From a virus, in the IMG/VR virus record IMGVR_UViG_3300022887_000006, positions 1 through 22,864 of that record: a DNA stretch of 22,864 nucleotides; one strand, given 5' to 3'. Of this stretch, positions 5,572 to 19,261 are shown one piece after another (position 1 is the first letter of the stretch; each line of letters begins with the position of its first letter). A model generated the notes under the pieces. It had not been told where the DNA came from and ran no database searches. It was given only the letters and a program-made list of their open reading frames with translations. A program made the translations under genes and the position numbers.

Positions 5572-6029
5572 TAGCAGATACTGATTTCATTTGGTATAGC
5601 AACATCTATATTTACTCCCCATCCAGCTAACTCATTCTCAAATCTGTCTTTAAATGGTTGAGCTGAAGGAGCGTCAAGCAACTGAAGCTTATCAGTAAAC
5701 ATATCTCCTCTTCTTAATTGTTGAATAACATCATTAACCACCTGTAATTGACTGTTATAAACGTCTTGCAAGTTGTCATTACCATTAATAACATCCTTAG
5801 CAGGTAAATCTTTATTGTAATCAACCACATCTAAAGCAAGTAATTGTATTGTGAAACGCATTATTGGGCCATCAAATACCACATTAGTAATGTTTAAGTG
5901 GCTTAATGGAAATATAGTAGTCTTATTTAAGTCTACATCAGACAAATCTCCATAGGTAACAGTAAAAACATTAGGGTTAGTCCTTAGTCTGTCCTTTAAT
6001 TTATCTATTATATCGTATATCTGTGTCAT
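5571..6029 (-). CDS. Putative tail completion/terminator-type protein
   Basis: 152 aa, ATG at 6029. The N-terminus (MTQIYDIIDKLKDRLRTNPN) is a helix followed by alternating beta strands, with a QVVNDVIQQLRRGD helix at about 97-110 and a C-terminal strand. Small alpha/beta proteins beginning with such a helix and lying beside a gp10-like gene are often tail terminators or minor tail proteins; here this is position-based inference. The start codon lies inside the last unit of a 31-bp tandem repeat (6008-6100), so the repeat forms both its leader and first codons. Confidence 0.5.
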   Translation of the reverse strand: MTQIYDIIDKLKDRLRTNPNVFTVTYGDLSDVDLNKTTIFPLSHLNITNVVFDGPIMRFTIQLLALDVVDYNKDLPAKDVINGNDNLQDVYNSQLQVVNDVIQQLRRGDMFTDKLQLLDAPSAQPFKDRFENELAGWGVNIDVAIPNEISIC

Positions 6030-6100
6030 TATTGTATATTATATCGTATGGCCGTATCGTTATTATGTATTATATCGTATGGCTGTATCGTTATTTGTTT
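6008..6100. repeat. Three 31-bp tandem repeats across leader and start codon
   Basis: Units begin TTATATCGTAT at 6008, 6039 and 6070 (plus strand), exactly 31 bp apart. Units 2 and 3 share about 24 bases of sequence including GTATCGTTATT. The leftmost unit contains the ATG (6027-6029) of the downstream gene, so the array spans from the end of the frameshifted gene (6091) into the next coding region. Confidence 0.85.
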
Positions 6101-6887
6101 TTATTACTAGCCTGTTTTATCATTTTAGCCTCTATATCGTTCTTTTCCTTCTCAAAGCTTAACCACATTAAGCAGGTATGTAATGAAACTTTGGTAACTT
6201 CATCAAGTTTTCTGACGTCTCCTCCAGCAAGTCCATAAATTGACTGATACCAGCCCCATTTTCTACCAAAGCCTGCCGTGAGGGAGAAGGTTCCTTGTTC
6301 ATCAGAGCCTCCTCCATTAAAGAGTTCATCGTATATTTTGACAATTTCTTCCCTAAACGATAAAAAAAAACAATAGAACCTAATGCTACATTAACAGGAG
6401 CATCTTTCATAACTTCTGCCCACTTCTCAGAGCCTTCATATTCAGCTATAATGTACTTACCTCCCTTACCAGCTATAATAGGTCTATACATAACAGCCAT
6501 AGCTTTATGCATATTATCCCAATCAGAAATATAAGACTCTAAGTCTACATATTCACCCATAGAAATCTTATCTAAGTTAGGTATGAAACCAAACTCAACA
6601 GTAACCCCATCAGAACCAGTCATAGTAAATCTATTAACCAAGTCACTCTTCTGATCAAAGCAAACAGATAGCTGTTTAAGAACAGACTCAAACATTGATA
6701 CAGGTAATCCATAGCTCTCCTTTAAGGTTAAGCCACAGAATATCTCTAATGCTTTTAAGTTCAAGAACTCATTGTTCTTGTTGCCCTCTTCAATATTCTT
6801 AGAGATGCTTAGATACTTCTGATACTGATGCAATTTAATTGCACTTAGGTCTTGAGGTATGCTTACTTCTAATTCTATTACTGCCAT
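6091..6887 (-). CDS. Tail assembly chaperone-like -1 frameshift fusion (265 aa)
   Basis: The zero frame from ATG 6887 reaches a T-TTT-TTT heptamer at 6369-6363. A -1 slip there enters a frame that stays open for 90 more codons (from 6363) to TAA at 6091-6093, giving 175+90=265 residues. The -1 extension contains FGRKWGWYQSIYGLAGGDV and VSLHTCLMWLSFEKEKN, a well-formed protein sequence with Trp/Tyr/Leu spacing that I associate with tail-assembly-chaperone extensions in phages of this kind. That frame has an upstream stop at 6391-6393 and no ATG or GTG before residue 66 of the extension, so it cannot be expressed alone. The extension fills what would otherwise be a gap before the next gene. This mirrors lambda G/GT. 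A homopolymer miscount (10 T instead of 9) would also give this product. Confidence 0.7.
6168..6887 (-). CDS. Tail assembly chaperone-like protein, unshifted product (239 aa)
   Basis: Zero-frame product from the same ATG (6887) ending at TAA 6168. The first 175 residues are shared with the frameshift fusion; the last 64 (RLGKKLSKYT through PKFHYIPA) are unique. The N-terminal half starts MAVIELEVSIPQDLSAIKL and contains a SISKNIEEG helix and an acidic GEYVDLESYISDWDN segment. In siphovirus tail modules the shorter product binds tape-measure protein in excess and the longer one recruits tail-tube subunits; that role here is inferred from the frameshift architecture. It is the first gene of the visible tail string and follows a 465-bp repeat-bearing non-coding region that may hold its promoter. 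Confidence 0.6.
   Translation of the reverse strand: MAVIELEVSIPQDLSAIKLHQYQKYLSISKNIEEGNKNNEFLNLKALEIFCGLTLKESYGLPVSMFESVLKQLSVCFDQKSDLVNRFTMTGSDGVTVEFGFIPNLDKISMGEYVDLESYISDWDNMHKAMAVMYRPIIAGKGGKYIIAEYEGSEKWAEVMKDAPVNVALGSIVFFYRLGKKLSKYTMNSLMEEALMNKEPSPSRQALVENGAGISQFMDLLEETSENLMKLPKFHYIPA
6363..6369 (-). other. Slippery heptamer T TTT TTT for -1 frameshift
   Basis: In minus-strand reading the codons are GTT TTT TTT TAT (6371-6360) inside a run of nine T. The heptamer with the zero-frame boundary T|TTT|TTT matches the X-XXY-YYZ rule for simultaneous slippage. I did not fold the downstream RNA for a stimulatory structure. Confidence 0.65.
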
Positions 6888-7352
6888 AAATTATACTTGT
6901 AGTATGATAACTGATTTACTTCCTTTTTGTTTTACTCTACATATAACTATAGATAAATATTATATATCTCTACATACAACTATAGATAAACCTTATAGTT
7001 GGTAACTACACTATAGATAAATAGTATTAAGATACAGCCTAATATATAAAACAAAAAAGGTACTTTATAGTTATCTTAGTGTAACATTCCTTGATCAGTA
7101 AGAGGCACATAGTTCAAGTTAAAATCAGTATAGCAATCCTCAATTAATTGTTATTTATTTCCTTTAGTTTCCCAACTAGGATAGCTGTTAAAACTCGTTA
7201 AAGAGACGCAAGTGGGTAAGCGTGTAGATTTTGCCAACAATGGATTTGGCTACAGTTTAATGATGGGAGAACTTCTCTACATAGGTGATTATATTTTTTA
7301 TATATTTTCCTTTGATAGGTGAAGTGGGTTTGGTTAATAAGATAAATATATT
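6888..7352. other. Non-coding divergent region between tail module and GIY-YIG gene
   Basis: 465 bases with no convincing gene, lying between the minus-strand tail genes and the plus-strand nuclease gene. The left third carries the ACTATAGATAAA repeats (6946-7021). A small inverted repeat GCCAA/TTGGC lies at 7233-7250. A frame at about 7185-7322 reads protein-like but lacks a normal start. No TAnnTTTG promoter of the consensus form was found on either strand. Confidence 0.6.
6946..7021 (+). repeat. Three copies of ACTATAGATAAA at about 3 helical turns
   Basis: Exact copies at 6946-6957, 6979-6990 and 7010-7021 (spacing 33 and 31 bp). The first two sit in a longer 33-bp unit beginning CTCTACATA. 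The second copy also belongs to a perfect 8-bp inverted repeat, CAACTATA (6977-6984) with TATAGTTG (6994-7001). The site lies 60-135 bp upstream of the tail-module ATG at 6887, consistent with an operator or activator-binding array. Confidence 0.75.
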
Positions 7353-7944: not shown

Positions 7945-8010
7945 CTCATATTTATTATATTTTTCTAACTAGGGTAACTCATATTTATTATATTTTTTTA
8001 ATTAGGCTAC
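7945..8010 (+). repeat. Two adjacent 33-bp direct repeats
   Basis: Units 7945-7977 and 7978-8010 both begin CTCATATTTATTATATTTTT and differ at only about four positions. Confidence 0.85.
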
Positions 8011-8164: not shown

Positions 8165-8213
8165 TACTACATTTAAGAGTTATATCTCTCATAGTACTAC
8201 CCTATTTAAGAGT
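8165..8213 (+). repeat. Two diverged copies of the TACTA...TTTAAGAGT element
   Basis: TACTACATTTAAGAGT at 8165-8180 and TACTACCC-TATTTAAGAGT at 8195-8213, same strand as the five-copy array at 10093-10234. Both keep TACTA and TTTAAGAGT and vary between them. Confidence 0.65.
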
Positions 8214-9845: not shown

Positions 9846-9877
9846 CAAATATAAACATTTTTTTGTATTAATACAAA
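9846..9877 (-). promoter_or_regulatory. Bacteroidetes-type promoter for the Gp88 operon, with operator-like palindrome
   Basis: On the minus strand TTTG (9877-9874), 20 bases, TATATTTG (9853-9846): an exact match to the -33/-7 pattern of Bacteroidetes primary-sigma promoters. A perfect 16-bp palindrome TTTGTATTAATACAAA (9862-9877) overlaps the -33 element, and a TGATC/GATCA pair (9843-9847, 9881-9885) flanks the whole. A repressor bound here would block the promoter. Confidence 0.75.
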
Positions 9878-9989
9878 TTTAGATCATTTTTTGTACTAAT
9901 TATTTTAACGCCTGGTTTTATCTTTGTGAAACATCTATATAATGAAGCAGGCGCGCGTGTACATAAATAATATAACATATCCTAATTTA

Positions 9990-10071
9990 TTAGAATGTAT
10001 TTTCTTATTTAGAATGAGTCCAGGTAACATATTATTTAGAATGAATCTAATTAAGGCACTATTTAGAATGA
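9990..10071 (+). repeat. 27-bp-period array with TTTAGAATGA core
   Basis: Exact TTTAGAATGA cores at 10008-10017, 10035-10044 and 10062-10071, each 27 bp apart; units 2 and 3 extend to TTTAGAATGAATCTA. A shortened core TTAGAATG at 9990-9997 lies off the 27-bp register. Confidence 0.85.
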
Positions 10072-10092
10072 ATCTAGATAACAAAAATAGGG

Positions 10093-10234
10093 TACTATGT
10101 TTAAGAGTAGCATTTTTTTACCCTACTATGTTTAAGAGTGCCGTTTTTGACCCCTACTATGTTTAAGAGTGAGGAAAAACTAACCCCTACTATGTTTAAG
10201 AGTAGCATTGAGCACCCCTACTATGTTTAAGAGT
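10093..10234 (+). repeat. Five-copy array of TACTATGTTTAAGAGT, 31/33-bp period
   Basis: Exact 16-bp copies at 10093-10108, 10124-10139, 10155-10170, 10188-10203 and 10219-10234. Start-to-start distances are 31, 31, 33 and 31 bp, close to three helical turns. Copies 3-5 are preceded by CCCC and copy 2 by CCC; the remaining spacer bases vary and are partly T- or A-rich. The last copy ends 20 bases before the ATG at 10255. Each copy includes TATGTTTA, one base off the TAnnTTTG promoter element. Confidence 0.95.
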
Positions 10235-10254
10235 AATAAATAAATATAAATATT

Positions 10255-10464
10255 ATGGAAGAAATTAAGTCAAACATTATGGAAGAAATTAAATTAAAAA
10301 CATTATCAGAAAAGGTTGTCAACTTTAGTGATGATCTAAGTATTCATTTAACACTTATGGAAGACGGTAGTCTTCATTCTGTTATCTGGGAAGATGGCAA
10401 CTGTGCTGAGGAACATTCTTTCGAGGTGTTCAGTAAGGAATTATTAAAAGGAATAGCGGTTTAA
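10255..10464 (+). CDS. Small acidic protein of unknown function (69 aa)
   Basis: Plus strand, start ATG 10255 or the second in-frame ATG at 10279; a 24-bp tandem duplication (ATTATGGAAGAAATTAA twice) carries both. The second ATG is preceded by CAAACATT, resembling leaders at 22303 and 22134, so it may be the true start (61 aa). The protein is acidic, with a helix LKTLSEKVVNFSDDLSI then SLHSVIWEDGNCAEEHSFEVF, a beta-hairpin-like part, and a terminal helix. No family recognised. The five-copy repeat array ends 20 bases upstream and a hairpin terminator follows, so it forms its own single-gene unit. Confidence 0.65.
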   Translation: MEEIKSNIMEEIKLKTLSEKVVNFSDDLSIHLTLMEDGSLHSVIWEDGNCAEEHSFEVFSKELLKGIAV

Positions 10465-10504: not shown

Positions 10505-10534
10505 AGCCTGGTATGTACCAGGCTCTTTGTATTT
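10505..10534 (+). terminator. Hairpin terminator after the 69-aa gene
   Basis: Perfect 9-bp stem AGCCTGGTA (10505-10513) / TACCAGGCT (10516-10524) with a two-base turn, followed on the plus strand by T-rich CTTTGTATTT. The minus side lacks a T tract, so it mainly serves the plus-strand gene. Confidence 0.65.
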
Positions 10535-10539
10535 AGGGC

Positions 10540-10569
10540 TACTATGTTTAAGGGGGTACTATGTTTAAG
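10540..10569 (+). repeat. Two truncated copies of the 16-bp array element
   Basis: TACTATGTTTAAG at 10540-10552 and 10557-10569, 17 bp apart, same orientation as the main array. They end just before the stop codon of the large terminase gene (10572). Confidence 0.9.
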
Positions 10570-10571
10570 GC

Positions 10572-11792
10572 TCACCTTATAACATAAGTTCCAGAGTTGC
10601 TTCCTTGTATTAAATACTGTAAGCCATACCTAATAGCATCACAAAAGTGATTGTAAGAATCTATTGGTTTCTCATTCTTATCTTGCCATACATAGTTATT
10701 AAACTCCTTCATTACTCCCTTACTACTTCTGTCTACTATGATCTCGTAGTCTTGCATTAATGCAATCCCACTAAGTATGCTGCCTTTCTTCTTTATAGTA
10801 GGCTTAATGTTTATGTCTAAAGCTTTTAGTTCGCTTATAAGTCTAGGCTCACTAGAGTCTCCAATGATTAAGTCTAAGCCACATTCCATCTTATTAAGTC
10901 TAGCTATCTCAGAGGTTGATAGACCTGCTTTTCCGTAGATCTCCCGAACGTATAGCCTTCTGTTGTCTTTATCTACACTTAGTTTTACTAAGGTTGTTAA
11001 ATCCTTTGAGAATCCAAAATCCTGACAGTACACAGTCTTCTCTAGTTGTAAGTAATCTCCTACTCTCCAGTTTCTGATGATGGCTCCTTCAGCTTTGCTG
11101 AGCCATCCCCCCAATATTATATGCTCATACTTGTCTGGTCTTTCTCTCTTCATACCCTCTACTTGCTTTATAAAGGATGCTGATAGGTTATCTTTGTTGT
11201 CTCTATAGTCTGTATGGATAAAGGTAGTACCCTCTTGTTGTCCATTGTAACCATCTACAATTGCATTAGGCAAGAAGAACCTTTGATATATCCAATGTTC
11301 TTTAGTTGTAGGGTTAAGTATTAATATACATCTATTCTGTTTAAGCTGTGATCTAACAGAGAAATCTATCTTATCAAATACCTCTTCATCTACAAGTTCC
11401 TCTGACTCGTCTAGTACGAATGTAGTAACTCCATTTAAAGATTTAAGTGCTGCTGTTTGGTTCCCAGAAGATGTGCGGATACCTTTAAATATAATAGAGC
11501 TTCCTGTTTCCAGGTTTATTATCTCATCCTTAGTAATTCTAAACTGTTCAGTTACGCCCATCATTTCTATCTTCTCTATAAACTCAGGAATAATAGAGGT
11601 CTGTGCTGACATCATAGTATAACGAGTAAAGAGGACTTTATGTCCTCTCTCGTATGTTAGGTTTAATAAGAACATAGCTACCCCAAAAGACTTTCCCGAG
11701 CCTCTTCCCCCAGTAACTATGTAGTATCTACTTTTATTATGCCAAAGTACTTGATACTTAGGGTGTATGTTTACTGTTAATGCTTCACTCAT
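10572..11792 (-). CDS. terL: Terminase large subunit
   Basis: 406 aa ATP-driven DNA packaging motor and headful/end nuclease. Walker A is GGRGSGKS (28-35), Walker B FVLDE (125-129) with D128 and catalytic E129, and the coupling motif ILNPT lies at 158-162. The RNase-H-like nuclease domain keeps its acidic triad: D258 in CQDFGFS, D312 in IIGDSSEP and D385 in NHFCDAIRYG. The arrangement matches the Terminase_3/PBSX-type families and the length is normal. It follows the putative small subunit by 32 bases. Unlike most phages, no portal gene follows; instead the accessory region begins directly downstream, with two repeat elements touching the stop codon. Confidence 0.95.
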   Translation of the reverse strand: MSEALTVNIHPKYQVLWHNKSRYYIVTGGRGSGKSFGVAMFLLNLTYERGHKVLFTRYTMMSAQTSIIPEFIEKIEMMGVTEQFRITKDEIINLETGSSIIFKGIRTSSGNQTAALKSLNGVTTFVLDESEELVDEEVFDKIDFSVRSQLKQNRCILILNPTTKEHWIYQRFFLPNAIVDGYNGQQEGTTFIHTDYRDNKDNLSASFIKQVEGMKRERPDKYEHIILGGWLSKAEGAIIRNWRVGDYLQLEKTVYCQDFGFSKDLTTLVKLSVDKDNRRLYVREIYGKAGLSTSEIARLNKMECGLDLIIGDSSEPRLISELKALDINIKPTIKKKGSILSGIALMQDYEIIVDRSSKGVMKEFNNYVWQDKNEKPIDSYNHFCDAIRYGLQYLIQGSNSGTYVIR

Positions 11793-12590: not shown

Positions 12591-13106
12591 CTATAGCTCT
12601 GCTCCTTCCATCTCATTAATAGATACCGTTCTTACAACCTCATTACTTATCATAAATAACATAGCGTTTATTCTTTCCATAGCCCTCTCTAATTGATTGC
12701 TGTTTAATAAATTTAGTCTTCTAACGATATTATGACTATCCTCTATTGGTGCTAATGATTCTATAATATTGTTTAATCTAATTACCTCATTAGTTAAGGT
12801 CTTTACCTCTTTATTAGATGCTATCAATTCTCTTTCATTTGATATTAAATCAATCGAATTAAAATTATTTAAAGCTTGCAATAATTCTTTGTCTTTTATT
12901 TGTGGTAGAACTTTACTCATTGCGTGTATAACAGCACAATGGTTTCTACCAACATATTTACCTATAGTAAGCTTTGGAAGTTTAGTGTTGGTTAAACATA
13001 GATAATAAAAAACAGCTCTTGCTTCTACATATTTTCTGTCTCTAGTATTTTTCGATATATCTAAACCCATCTTTAGGTTTACATAATTGTAAATGTATTT
13101 AATCAT
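12591..13106 (-). CDS. Orphan DnaA domain IV-like DNA-binding protein
   Basis: 171 aa. Residues 22-66 read as DnaA domain IV: an N-terminal helix with YVEARAVFYYLCL (the R-x(4)-YL pattern), then LTIGKYVGRNHCAVIHAMSKV, matching the DnaA signature GRDHTTVLHACRKI. The AAA+ ATPase part of DnaA is absent. At the base-reading positions, DHTT of DnaA is NHCA here (55-58): His56 is kept and the two Thr are Cys and Ala. Residues 80-150 form a long coiled-coil-like region (NEVIRLNNIIESL, RAMERINAMLFMI) that could mediate dimerisation. It would bind DnaA-box-like DNA, as replication regulator or decoy. Family match is by motif reading. Confidence 0.75.
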   Translation of the reverse strand: MIKYIYNYVNLKMGLDISKNTRDRKYVEARAVFYYLCLTNTKLPKLTIGKYVGRNHCAVIHAMSKVLPQIKDKELLQALNNFNSIDLISNERELIASNKEVKTLTNEVIRLNNIIESLAPIEDSHNIVRRLNLLNSNQLERAMERINAMLFMISNEVVRTVSINEMEGAEL

Positions 13107-17053: not shown

Positions 17054-17407
17054 TTAATGTTTATCTAAGTTACTTACTAAAGCTTTATGTATTTCTTTAC
17101 TTAGACTTGAGTTATTTGATTTTGCCAACGACTTGTATATATCCTTTATATTATTTGATACTCTAATAGAAATGAATTTATTTTTCTTTGTAGACTCTAA
17201 ATCAATAACTGCGTTATGGCTTAAAACAGCCAAAGTCGCTTCTTTAGCTGTAAAAAATGATTTTACAATATAATTAATTCCATTAATAATGGTAGGTGGA
17301 CTTGTGCCTATTTGCCATTCGCAATCTTCTGTTGTGTTATAGTCGCTGCACTTAATGTCTACAATAACCCATTTTCTTTCTCTGTGTTTTTGCTCTATAC
17401 TTTTCAT
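17054..17407 (-). CDS. Putative ribbon-helix-helix regulator with extra N-terminal domain
   Basis: 117 aa. ATG 17407 overlaps the upstream TGA (ATGA). Residues 1-70 form an alpha/beta part (RKWVIVDIKC, WQIGTSPPTIINGINYIV, AKEATLAVLSHNA) with Cys20 and Cys29. Residues 78-115 read KFISIRVSNNIKDIYKSLAKS and then LSKEIHKALVSNL, the strand-helix-helix of Arc/CopG-type DNA-binding domains. RHH domains are usually N-terminal; a C-terminal one is less common. It may repress phage promoters, for example at one of the palindromes or repeat arrays in the window; no target is shown. Confidence 0.6.
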   Translation of the reverse strand: MKSIEQKHRERKWVIVDIKCSDYNTTEDCEWQIGTSPPTIINGINYIVKSFFTAKEATLAVLSHNAVIDLESTKKNKFISIRVSNNIKDIYKSLAKSNNSSLSKEIHKALVSNLDKH

Positions 17408-18242: not shown

Positions 18243-18836
18243 TTACTTAGTATTTGATTTATCGATTGATTTAGTAATTGATTTAGGGTTGATTAAATGA
18301 AAATCACCATTCAAGTAATCCTGATAATCTTCAATGAACTTAATATTTAAAGCGTGTTTGTAATTCTTAATAGAATTGTATATGCTTGTCAGGCTTATGC
18401 CTGATCCATTAGCTATATCTCTTAAAGACATATTAGTCTTAAAGTACAAAGAAGAAAGTATAATGTCATATCTTTCCCAATCTAATATCTCAGTTGATAT
18501 AGAGTCTACAAGGTTATGAAAAGCCTCTTGTTGATTAAACTCCAAATCATCAAGATCTGAATCATCTTGTAAATCATCAGTTTCCAAATACTCAAAGAAC
18601 GTATATTTCTTTTTAGCTTTAATGTAATCCACAAACATATTCTTGAGTGTGACATAAACAAAGAATCGGTTGACCTCATCATCGTTATACATTATCTTTT
18701 TCTCGTCGGTAACAAGTCTGTGTATTCTAAGATACATTGATTGAACTATGTCTTCTGCGGTGTATTTATCACACCCCATATTGACAACCATTTTTACCCA
18801 AAGGGTATGGTTTTCTGCAAGCTTTTCTAATATCAA
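18243..18836 (-). CDS. Phage-encoded sigma-70-family (ECF-like) factor
   Basis: 197 aa. The start is TTG 18836, overlapping the TGA of the RusA gene (TTGA); there is no ATG before residue 16. Region 2-like part: TAEDIVQSMYLRIHRL (26-41), NRFFVYVTLKNMFVDYIKAKKKY (56-78), with the DIVQ motif of sigma region 2.1/2.2. An acidic linker (87-100) follows, then a region 4-type helix-turn-helix MSLRDIANGSGISLTSIYNS (136-155). The C-terminal tail is Lys/Ser-rich from an ATTGATTTA DNA repeat. It probably redirects host RNA polymerase to late or middle phage promoters, perhaps at repeat elements in this window. Confidence 0.8.
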   Translation of the reverse strand: MILEKLAENHTLWVKMVVNMGCDKYTAEDIVQSMYLRIHRLVTDEKKIMYNDDEVNRFFVYVTLKNMFVDYIKAKKKYTFFEYLETDDLQDDSDLDDLEFNQQEAFHNLVDSISTEILDWERYDIILSSLYFKTNMSLRDIANGSGISLTSIYNSIKNYKHALNIKFIEDYQDYLNGDFHLINPKSITKSIDKSNTK

Positions 18837-19261
18837 TAGTCTAGTATAAGGGTTATTAAATCTTTGTCTCCGTAATACTTTTCTAAATTGTTTATTGTTA
18901 CTATGTTTTGGTCTTGTTCAAAAACCACTCCTTCTAAGGCATCTATAAACGCCTTGTTTAAATTGTCTTGTAAGTCTGGCTTAGCAGTCTTATATAATTT
19001 ACCTATTCTTTTCTTCTTAGGAATACTCTTTAGGTATGCGTATTGGTAGGTTAGCTGCGCAATGTGTATCTCTGTTCCTGCTGGAATAATATTAAAGCCC
19101 TTACTTAGCTGAGCCTTCGCTAACTTAGATACAGTCTTTTGGAAGTCTATTATCTTCTTGGGTTTCCAAGGTCTTCCTGCTCTAGTAAATCTCACCGATT
19201 GGTGAGGTACTGGTTTAAGTTCAAACTCTAATTTTAGTCTAGTCAAATTTCTTAGTATCAA
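18833..19261 (-). CDS. rusA: RusA-type Holliday junction resolvase
   Basis: 142 aa. No ATG is available near the start: TTG 19261 (or TTG 19246) overlaps the end of the ATPase gene. RusA hallmarks: N-terminal strand FELKPVPHQSVRF (13-25), KPDLQDNLNKAFIDALEG (94-111) with D96, D99 and K103, and VVFEQDQNIVTI (112-123) with D117; K128 follows. E. coli RusA uses three Asp and one Lys in the same order. The inserted Gln between D96 and D99 (KPDLQDN versus the usual KPDLDN) adds one residue between acids. It resolves recombination or replication junctions before packaging. Confidence 0.85.
   Translation of the reverse strand: MILRNLTRLKLEFELKPVPHQSVRFTRAGRPWKPKKIIDFQKTVSKLAKAQLSKGFNIIPAGTEIHIAQLTYQYAYLKSIPKKKRIGKLYKTAKPDLQDNLNKAFIDALEGVVFEQDQNIVTINNLEKYYGDKDLITLILDY

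Follow-up and report, generated by a model that had tools for sequence, protein, structure and literature searches.

RinA and ArpU are phage late-gene regulators placed beside terS. The stoperators of mycobacteriophage L5 and cluster A (gp71 repressor family) are 13-bp asymmetric sites present many times per genome; they lie in short intergenic gaps in one orientation relative to transcription, are bound by a phage protein, and have motifs that diverge together with that protein (PMC9283540, PMC6550527). In E. coli DnaA, R399 reads TTA and the helix 434-451 reads TnCACA (PMC5742627).

We analysed a stretch of 22,864 bp (the window), which matches the IMG/VR contig G001 (36,784 bp) exactly over 22,864 bp; the genes of this contig almost all point one way. 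Like the stoperators, the elements of the array found in the window are short, asymmetric and in one orientation relative to transcription. Unlike them, the elements are clustered in tandem arrays of 2-7 sites at a few module boundaries, and the candidate protein has a DnaA domain IV fold and is not an L5-type repressor (HTH plus Stoperator domain). No L5-type repressor was found among the part of the proteins that was scanned, and no lysogeny genes among the genes scanned. The array may work like stoperators, yet it stands outside that family. The locus resembles bacterial DnaA boxes and domain IV (PF08299; PDB 1J1V, 3PVP, 8BTG) in fold, conserved DNA-contact residues, TTA start and CAYA core, but differs in the missing AAA+ domain, a near-invariant AGTA extension and phage-specific arrays with no shown origin. 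As with RinA and ArpU, a small DNA-binding protein is encoded just upstream of terS-terL; its fold is different, however, and the arrays lie after terL and at other boundaries. Plasmid and phage iteron arrays likewise consist of direct repeats in an AT-rich region, whereas here there are several arrays per genome with no fixed helical pitch, and most of the large arrays are linked to a promoter motif.

The array past the terL stop codon

The array and the surrounding copies of its element comprise the following features.

8165..8213, minus strand: two degenerate copies, ACTCTTAAATGTAGTA and ACTCTTAAATAGGGTA, at 8165 and 8198, 33 bp apart, with 2-3 mismatches
10093..10234, minus strand: five-copy array with spacing 31/31/33/31; the sense unit ACTCTTAAACATAGTA runs into GGGG or CCC, and the element is conserved in relatives
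10540..10572, minus strand: two further copies, CCTTAAACATAGTA, 17 bp apart, beginning 2-3 nt past the terL stop; start of the array
10572..11792, minus strand: terminase large subunit gene (terL), at whose stop codon the array begins

Exact copies of TACTATGTTTAAGAGT stand on the plus strand at 10093, 10124, 10155, 10188 and 10219, just as a sequence-only reading of the window had reported; the C-run that it placed ahead of copies 2-5 is also present (CCC or CCCC), with GGG instead before copy 1. On the coding (minus) strand the element reads YYCTTAAACATAGTA, and a run of G or C comes after it. None of 100 shuffles held 11 matches at three or fewer mismatches (shuffle mean 0.86). The same reading missed two more copies of the 13-mer core TACTATGTTTAAG, at 10540 and 10557, beside the terL stop at 10572. 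These two copies and the five-copy array are parts of one larger array, itself conserved, whose first copy adjoins the stop codon of terL. The degenerate copies at 8165 and 8198 may be decayed elements.

A reverse-oriented ORF of 69 aa (10255-10464, plus strand) lies within the array region, between its two-copy and five-copy parts, and is accompanied there by a terminator-like hairpin at 10505-10524; small reverse ORFs are found in the post-terL array region of relatives too (G007, G009, G015 and G018). Intergenic direct repeats at 6001-6104, 6935-6997 and 7945-8010 have a pitch of 31 or 33 bp and sequences that differ from the array element.

A two-copy pattern scan of IMG/VR returned 60 loci, many with a related terminase. 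The element is common to about 60 IMG/VR phage contigs, and its absence from close relatives, which the sequence-only reading had named as fatal to its proposal, is not what is seen. The sense consensus is YY[C/A/G]TTAAAC[AT>GC>AC]AGTA, followed by a GG.. or CC.. run. The element is almost always in the transcription sense, and sense matches far outnumber antisense ones (0-2 antisense matches per genome of type A, the element type of the window). Placement was surveyed in 18 larger contigs, where the first base of most arrays is at stop+3 or stop-4 relative to the gene upstream. A post-terL array is present in all 18, directly or behind an inserted endonuclease-like gene; other sites are after a 175-aa gene adjoining a capsid-type gene and around lysis genes, and in some of the 18 contigs an array stands ahead of a second early-type block. 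Several genomes carry similar arrays at 3-4 places, and some have two full modules. The ORF inserted between terL and the array in G003 and G012 is HNH-type endonuclease-like. Bacterial genomes gave five pattern matches, which are chance-like and none of which extends to a TTAAAC[AG][TC]AGTA array. No similar array DNA was found in the annotated phages searched, P12024S included, and the element is not mentioned in the papers searched.

The pitch of 31-33 bp had been read as three-turn phasing that would put all copies on one DNA face. It holds in the window; across the relatives the pitch ranges from 13 to 55 bp (13, 15, 17, 19, 21, 25, 27, 29, 31, 37, 43, 49 and others), so three-turn phasing is not conserved and was rejected as the rule of the array. 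The resultant of the spacing is 0.34 for a period of 10.5 and 0.85 for a period of 2. Of the distinct type A spacers 109 of 118 are odd (a decayed copy lies within three of the nine even ones); spacers are odd in 44 of 45 cases for type C, 5 of 5 for type B and 8 of 9 for type D. Grouping of similar spacers gives 65 odd and 8 even. The raw p-value is inflated by ancestry. Helical phase, RNA folding and spacer hairpins leave the odd spacing unexplained, and complementarity of the spacer ends is mostly due to the fixed GG...YY ends. If functional, the odd-spacing rule would point to an assembly mechanism beyond helical phasing.

Element types and the DnaA domain IV protein

Relatives whose terminase is 72-73% identical to that of the window carry different elements in the same place, namely GTTTAACATTAT (type B), GTTTAATATNATGGGG (type C) and CCGTCTTTGTTATGG (type D); type E, TCTTTTTTTTAGTA, is found on one contig, L029. 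Type A is common to the window and to phages with a terminase of only 58-60% identity, so element type does not simply track terminase distance. The near -7 element that the sequence-only reading saw in each copy on the plus strand is not kept in the diverged types ATAATGTTAAAC, CATNATATTAAAC and TACTAAAAAAAAGA. The element has only TATGTTTA of the pattern TAnnTTTG, and this is gone in types B, C and E; an array of Bacteroidetes promoters with a -7 TAnnTTTG in each copy was rejected. Antisense promoters were discarded because the -7 likeness is not conserved, and sense promoters because an intrinsic terminator lies within tens of bp downstream of the arrays after the 175-aa gene.

A gene-content comparison singled out one protein of the window as the candidate partner of the array.

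12591..13106, minus strand: stand-alone DnaA domain IV (Bac_DnaA_C) protein, 171 aa, with C-terminal helices; two genes upstream of terS

The protein matches Pfam PF08299 with an E-value of 4.6e-11 (43 bits against a gathering score of 31.5) and has PDB profile matches to 8btg, 1j1v and 3pvp. Its AlphaFold model (pLDDT 87) is aligned by Foldseek to 3pvp, 8btg and 1j1v with probability 1.00 and E-values from 4.7e-3 to 3.5e-2, the best being 3pvp (TMt 0.76, E 4.7e-3). From sequence and modelled fold it is predicted to be a DnaA domain IV protein, matching DnaA bound to its box. It comprises domain IV plus helices only and, without an AAA+ domain, is not a full DnaA initiator.

Type C genomes have a remote DnaA-IV relative (c42) at a similar place (hhalign probability 95.9). 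Where enough flank was available, the DnaA-IV family of the window (c24) occurs with type A in 34 loci and with type B in 2, and c42 occurs with types C or D in 19 loci and with type A in none; in the TerL tree A changes to C in what is essentially a single event, so this covariation is partly confounded by ancestry, and for each of the few extra switches (B and E) there is only one contig or a small number of them. Some few loci lack both an array and a clear assignment. On two short contigs, L066 and L074, C elements occur together with an unusual protein resembling DnaA-IV, whose score is slightly higher for c24. Among 24 shared gene families, none follows element type as closely, when set against overall relatedness, as the DnaA-IV gene, with tracking values of 0.193 to distant type-A phages and 0.049 to type-C phages. 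Altered recognition residues accompany altered elements, MSHCNV being found with the type B element (L050-052) and DYSSV with the type E element; the latter contig, L029, has this altered recognition region together with a variant array, TCTTTTTTTTAGTACCCCC, about 26-150 nt past terL. The type D elements have no clear link to any protein change. A RusA-like family (cluster 35) that appeared exclusive to type C was dismissed as a probable start-codon clustering artefact, judged from the RusA-like ORF of the window (18833-19261).

Residues R22, R30 and H56 of the DnaA-IV proteins, which are invariant or nearly so, align with R399, R407 and H434 of E. coli DnaA (numbers counted along the aligned E. 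coli chain). The published DnaA reading heads appear to match the invariant TTA and the DnaA-box-like core of the element, TTAAACATA or TTAAACACA, which agree with the DnaA box TTATnCACA at 6 and 7 of the 8 defined positions, respectively. The sequence-only reading had put forward the DnaA-IV-like protein as one to test, a choice vindicated by its covariation with element type. The phage's own DnaA domain IV protein is the best-supported candidate for the partner of the array, to which it would bind. Cultured phages with remote DnaA-IV proteins (phi46:1, Harreka_1, mumin6-1 and Nekkels_1) have no such array, and no stand-alone DnaA-IV phage regulator was found in the literature searched.

The promoter downstream of the array

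Several elements lie between the array and the next transcription unit.

9846..9876, minus strand: match to a host-type (Bacteroidetes sigma-A) promoter, TTG at 9874-9876 and TATATTTG at 9846-9853; a motif match only
9953..9963, minus strand: GC-rich recurrent motif GTACACGCGCG (family form TTTTTTGTATACGCGTGCG)
10006..10026, minus strand: TCTAAATA element, third copy, less well preserved
10033..10053, minus strand: TCTAAATA element, second copy, at a pitch of 27 bp
10060..10080, minus strand: inverted-repeat-like element TATCTAGA-TTCAT-TCTAAATA, adjoining the array

TTG is part of the Bacteroidetes promoter pattern, which was searched as TTG-N17-23-TAnnTTTG. The -7 consensus TAnnTTTG is from published work (PMC9723704). 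A promoter match is present in 13 of 22 gaps with at least three elements against 18 of 608 gaps without an array (Fisher 2e-13) and, for gaps of at least 300 bp, in 13 of 18 against 8 of 58 (6e-6), p-values that are optimistic because related genomes are treated as independent. The motif usually lies about 155-250 nt past the last element and points in the same direction. The arrays at the capsid-region and lysis boundaries have no promoter match downstream, and a single role may therefore not suit every site. At 9862-9877 a perfect palindrome of 16 bp, TTTGTATTAATACAAA, overlaps the TTG (-33 region) of the promoter match and is likely a repressor operator of the window phage; the inverted-repeat-like element that adjoins the array is probably a second operator. 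The consensus TATTTAGA-N5-TCTAAATA recurs between array and promoter in most related modules, and the GTATACGCG motif, likewise between array and promoter, is recurrent in many.

Proposed function and competing explanations

We propose that the DnaA-IV protein, made two genes upstream of terS-terL and presumably from the same operon, would bind the DnaA-box-like TTAAACATAGTA in tandem directly past the terL stop; the bound array would stop the terL transcript from running on, and/or would regulate the host-type promoter about 220-250 bp downstream, at the start of the next operon. We consider it fairly likely that the array is a multi-copy, one-orientation set of sites for this protein that controls transcription at the module boundary. 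Given binding, an elongation block has slightly better than even chances, repression or activation of the downstream promoter is possible but not probable, and a replication role is doubtful. Because of the orientation, the stop-codon placement, the promoter link and the covariation, the simplest account of the array is a multi-site operator or roadblock that would separate transcription units and control the next one.

Iterons, multi-site operators and partition sites had all been entertained by the earlier reading; a multi-site protein-binding array is supported, and with similar arrays at 3-4 places in several genomes a single iteron origin is a poor fit. In the origin reading, the copies would be iterons of DnaA-box type next to AT-rich DNA, and the DnaA-IV protein or host DnaA would open the site to start phage replication; the DnaA-IV fold of the candidate, the resemblance of the element to the DnaA box, the AT-rich repeats adjoining the array and the large conserved non-coding region past terL agree with it, as does the detrended cumulative GC skew, which in 14 of 18 genomes has its extreme no more than about 300 nt from the terL stop. 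That extreme, however, is a maximum, which usually marks a terminus and not an origin and may only reflect gene-block composition. An iteron origin would have one array with fixed near-helical spacing; instead, genomes have several arrays, some of them two full modules, at widely varying pitch, and the DnaA-IV protein has no AAA+ domain. We regard an origin as unlikely.

It is similarly improbable that the DnaA-IV gene is merely co-inherited and that the array is bound by the sigma-like protein (18243-18836), the ribbon-helix-helix-like protein (17054-17407) or a host factor. Although the sigma-like protein is present in 16 of 18 genomes, and the tracking test also gives fairly high ranks to terS and the sigma-like gene, the sigma-like family is fifth among the 24 and differs little from one element type to another (0.472 vs 0.408), and single elements of 12-13 bp packed at 13-17 bp are unlike tandem two-part promoters. 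Very improbable is a sense RNA with sites for antitermination or processing close to the terminators that follow terL and the 175-aa gene, with CTCTTAAACA as a sequence that we take to be boxA-like: the element is nearly always in the transcription sense and often shortly ahead of an intrinsic terminator, but the CTC part is not conserved, whereas AGTA is, and in type C genomes the terminator behind the 175-aa gene persists where the element is absent. The RNA shows no significant folding (mean z -0.41 sense, 0.02 antisense), a result in favour of a site in the DNA. A likeness of the element to the E. coli Ter core (TATGTT) is judged coincidental, since conservation does not extend to the part concerned.

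Beyond the operator or roadblock itself, we see evenly balanced chances that this phage lineage has turned a stand-alone DnaA DNA-reading domain into a dedicated regulator with fast-diverging cognate operator arrays and an odd-spacing rule. If this is true, a DnaA-derived protein would join the known phage transcription regulators, the phages would offer naturally occurring pairs of protein and site, as a series in which to follow change in DnaA-type recognition, and the array would mark the main control region in a widespread, uncharacterised flavobacterial-type phage group.
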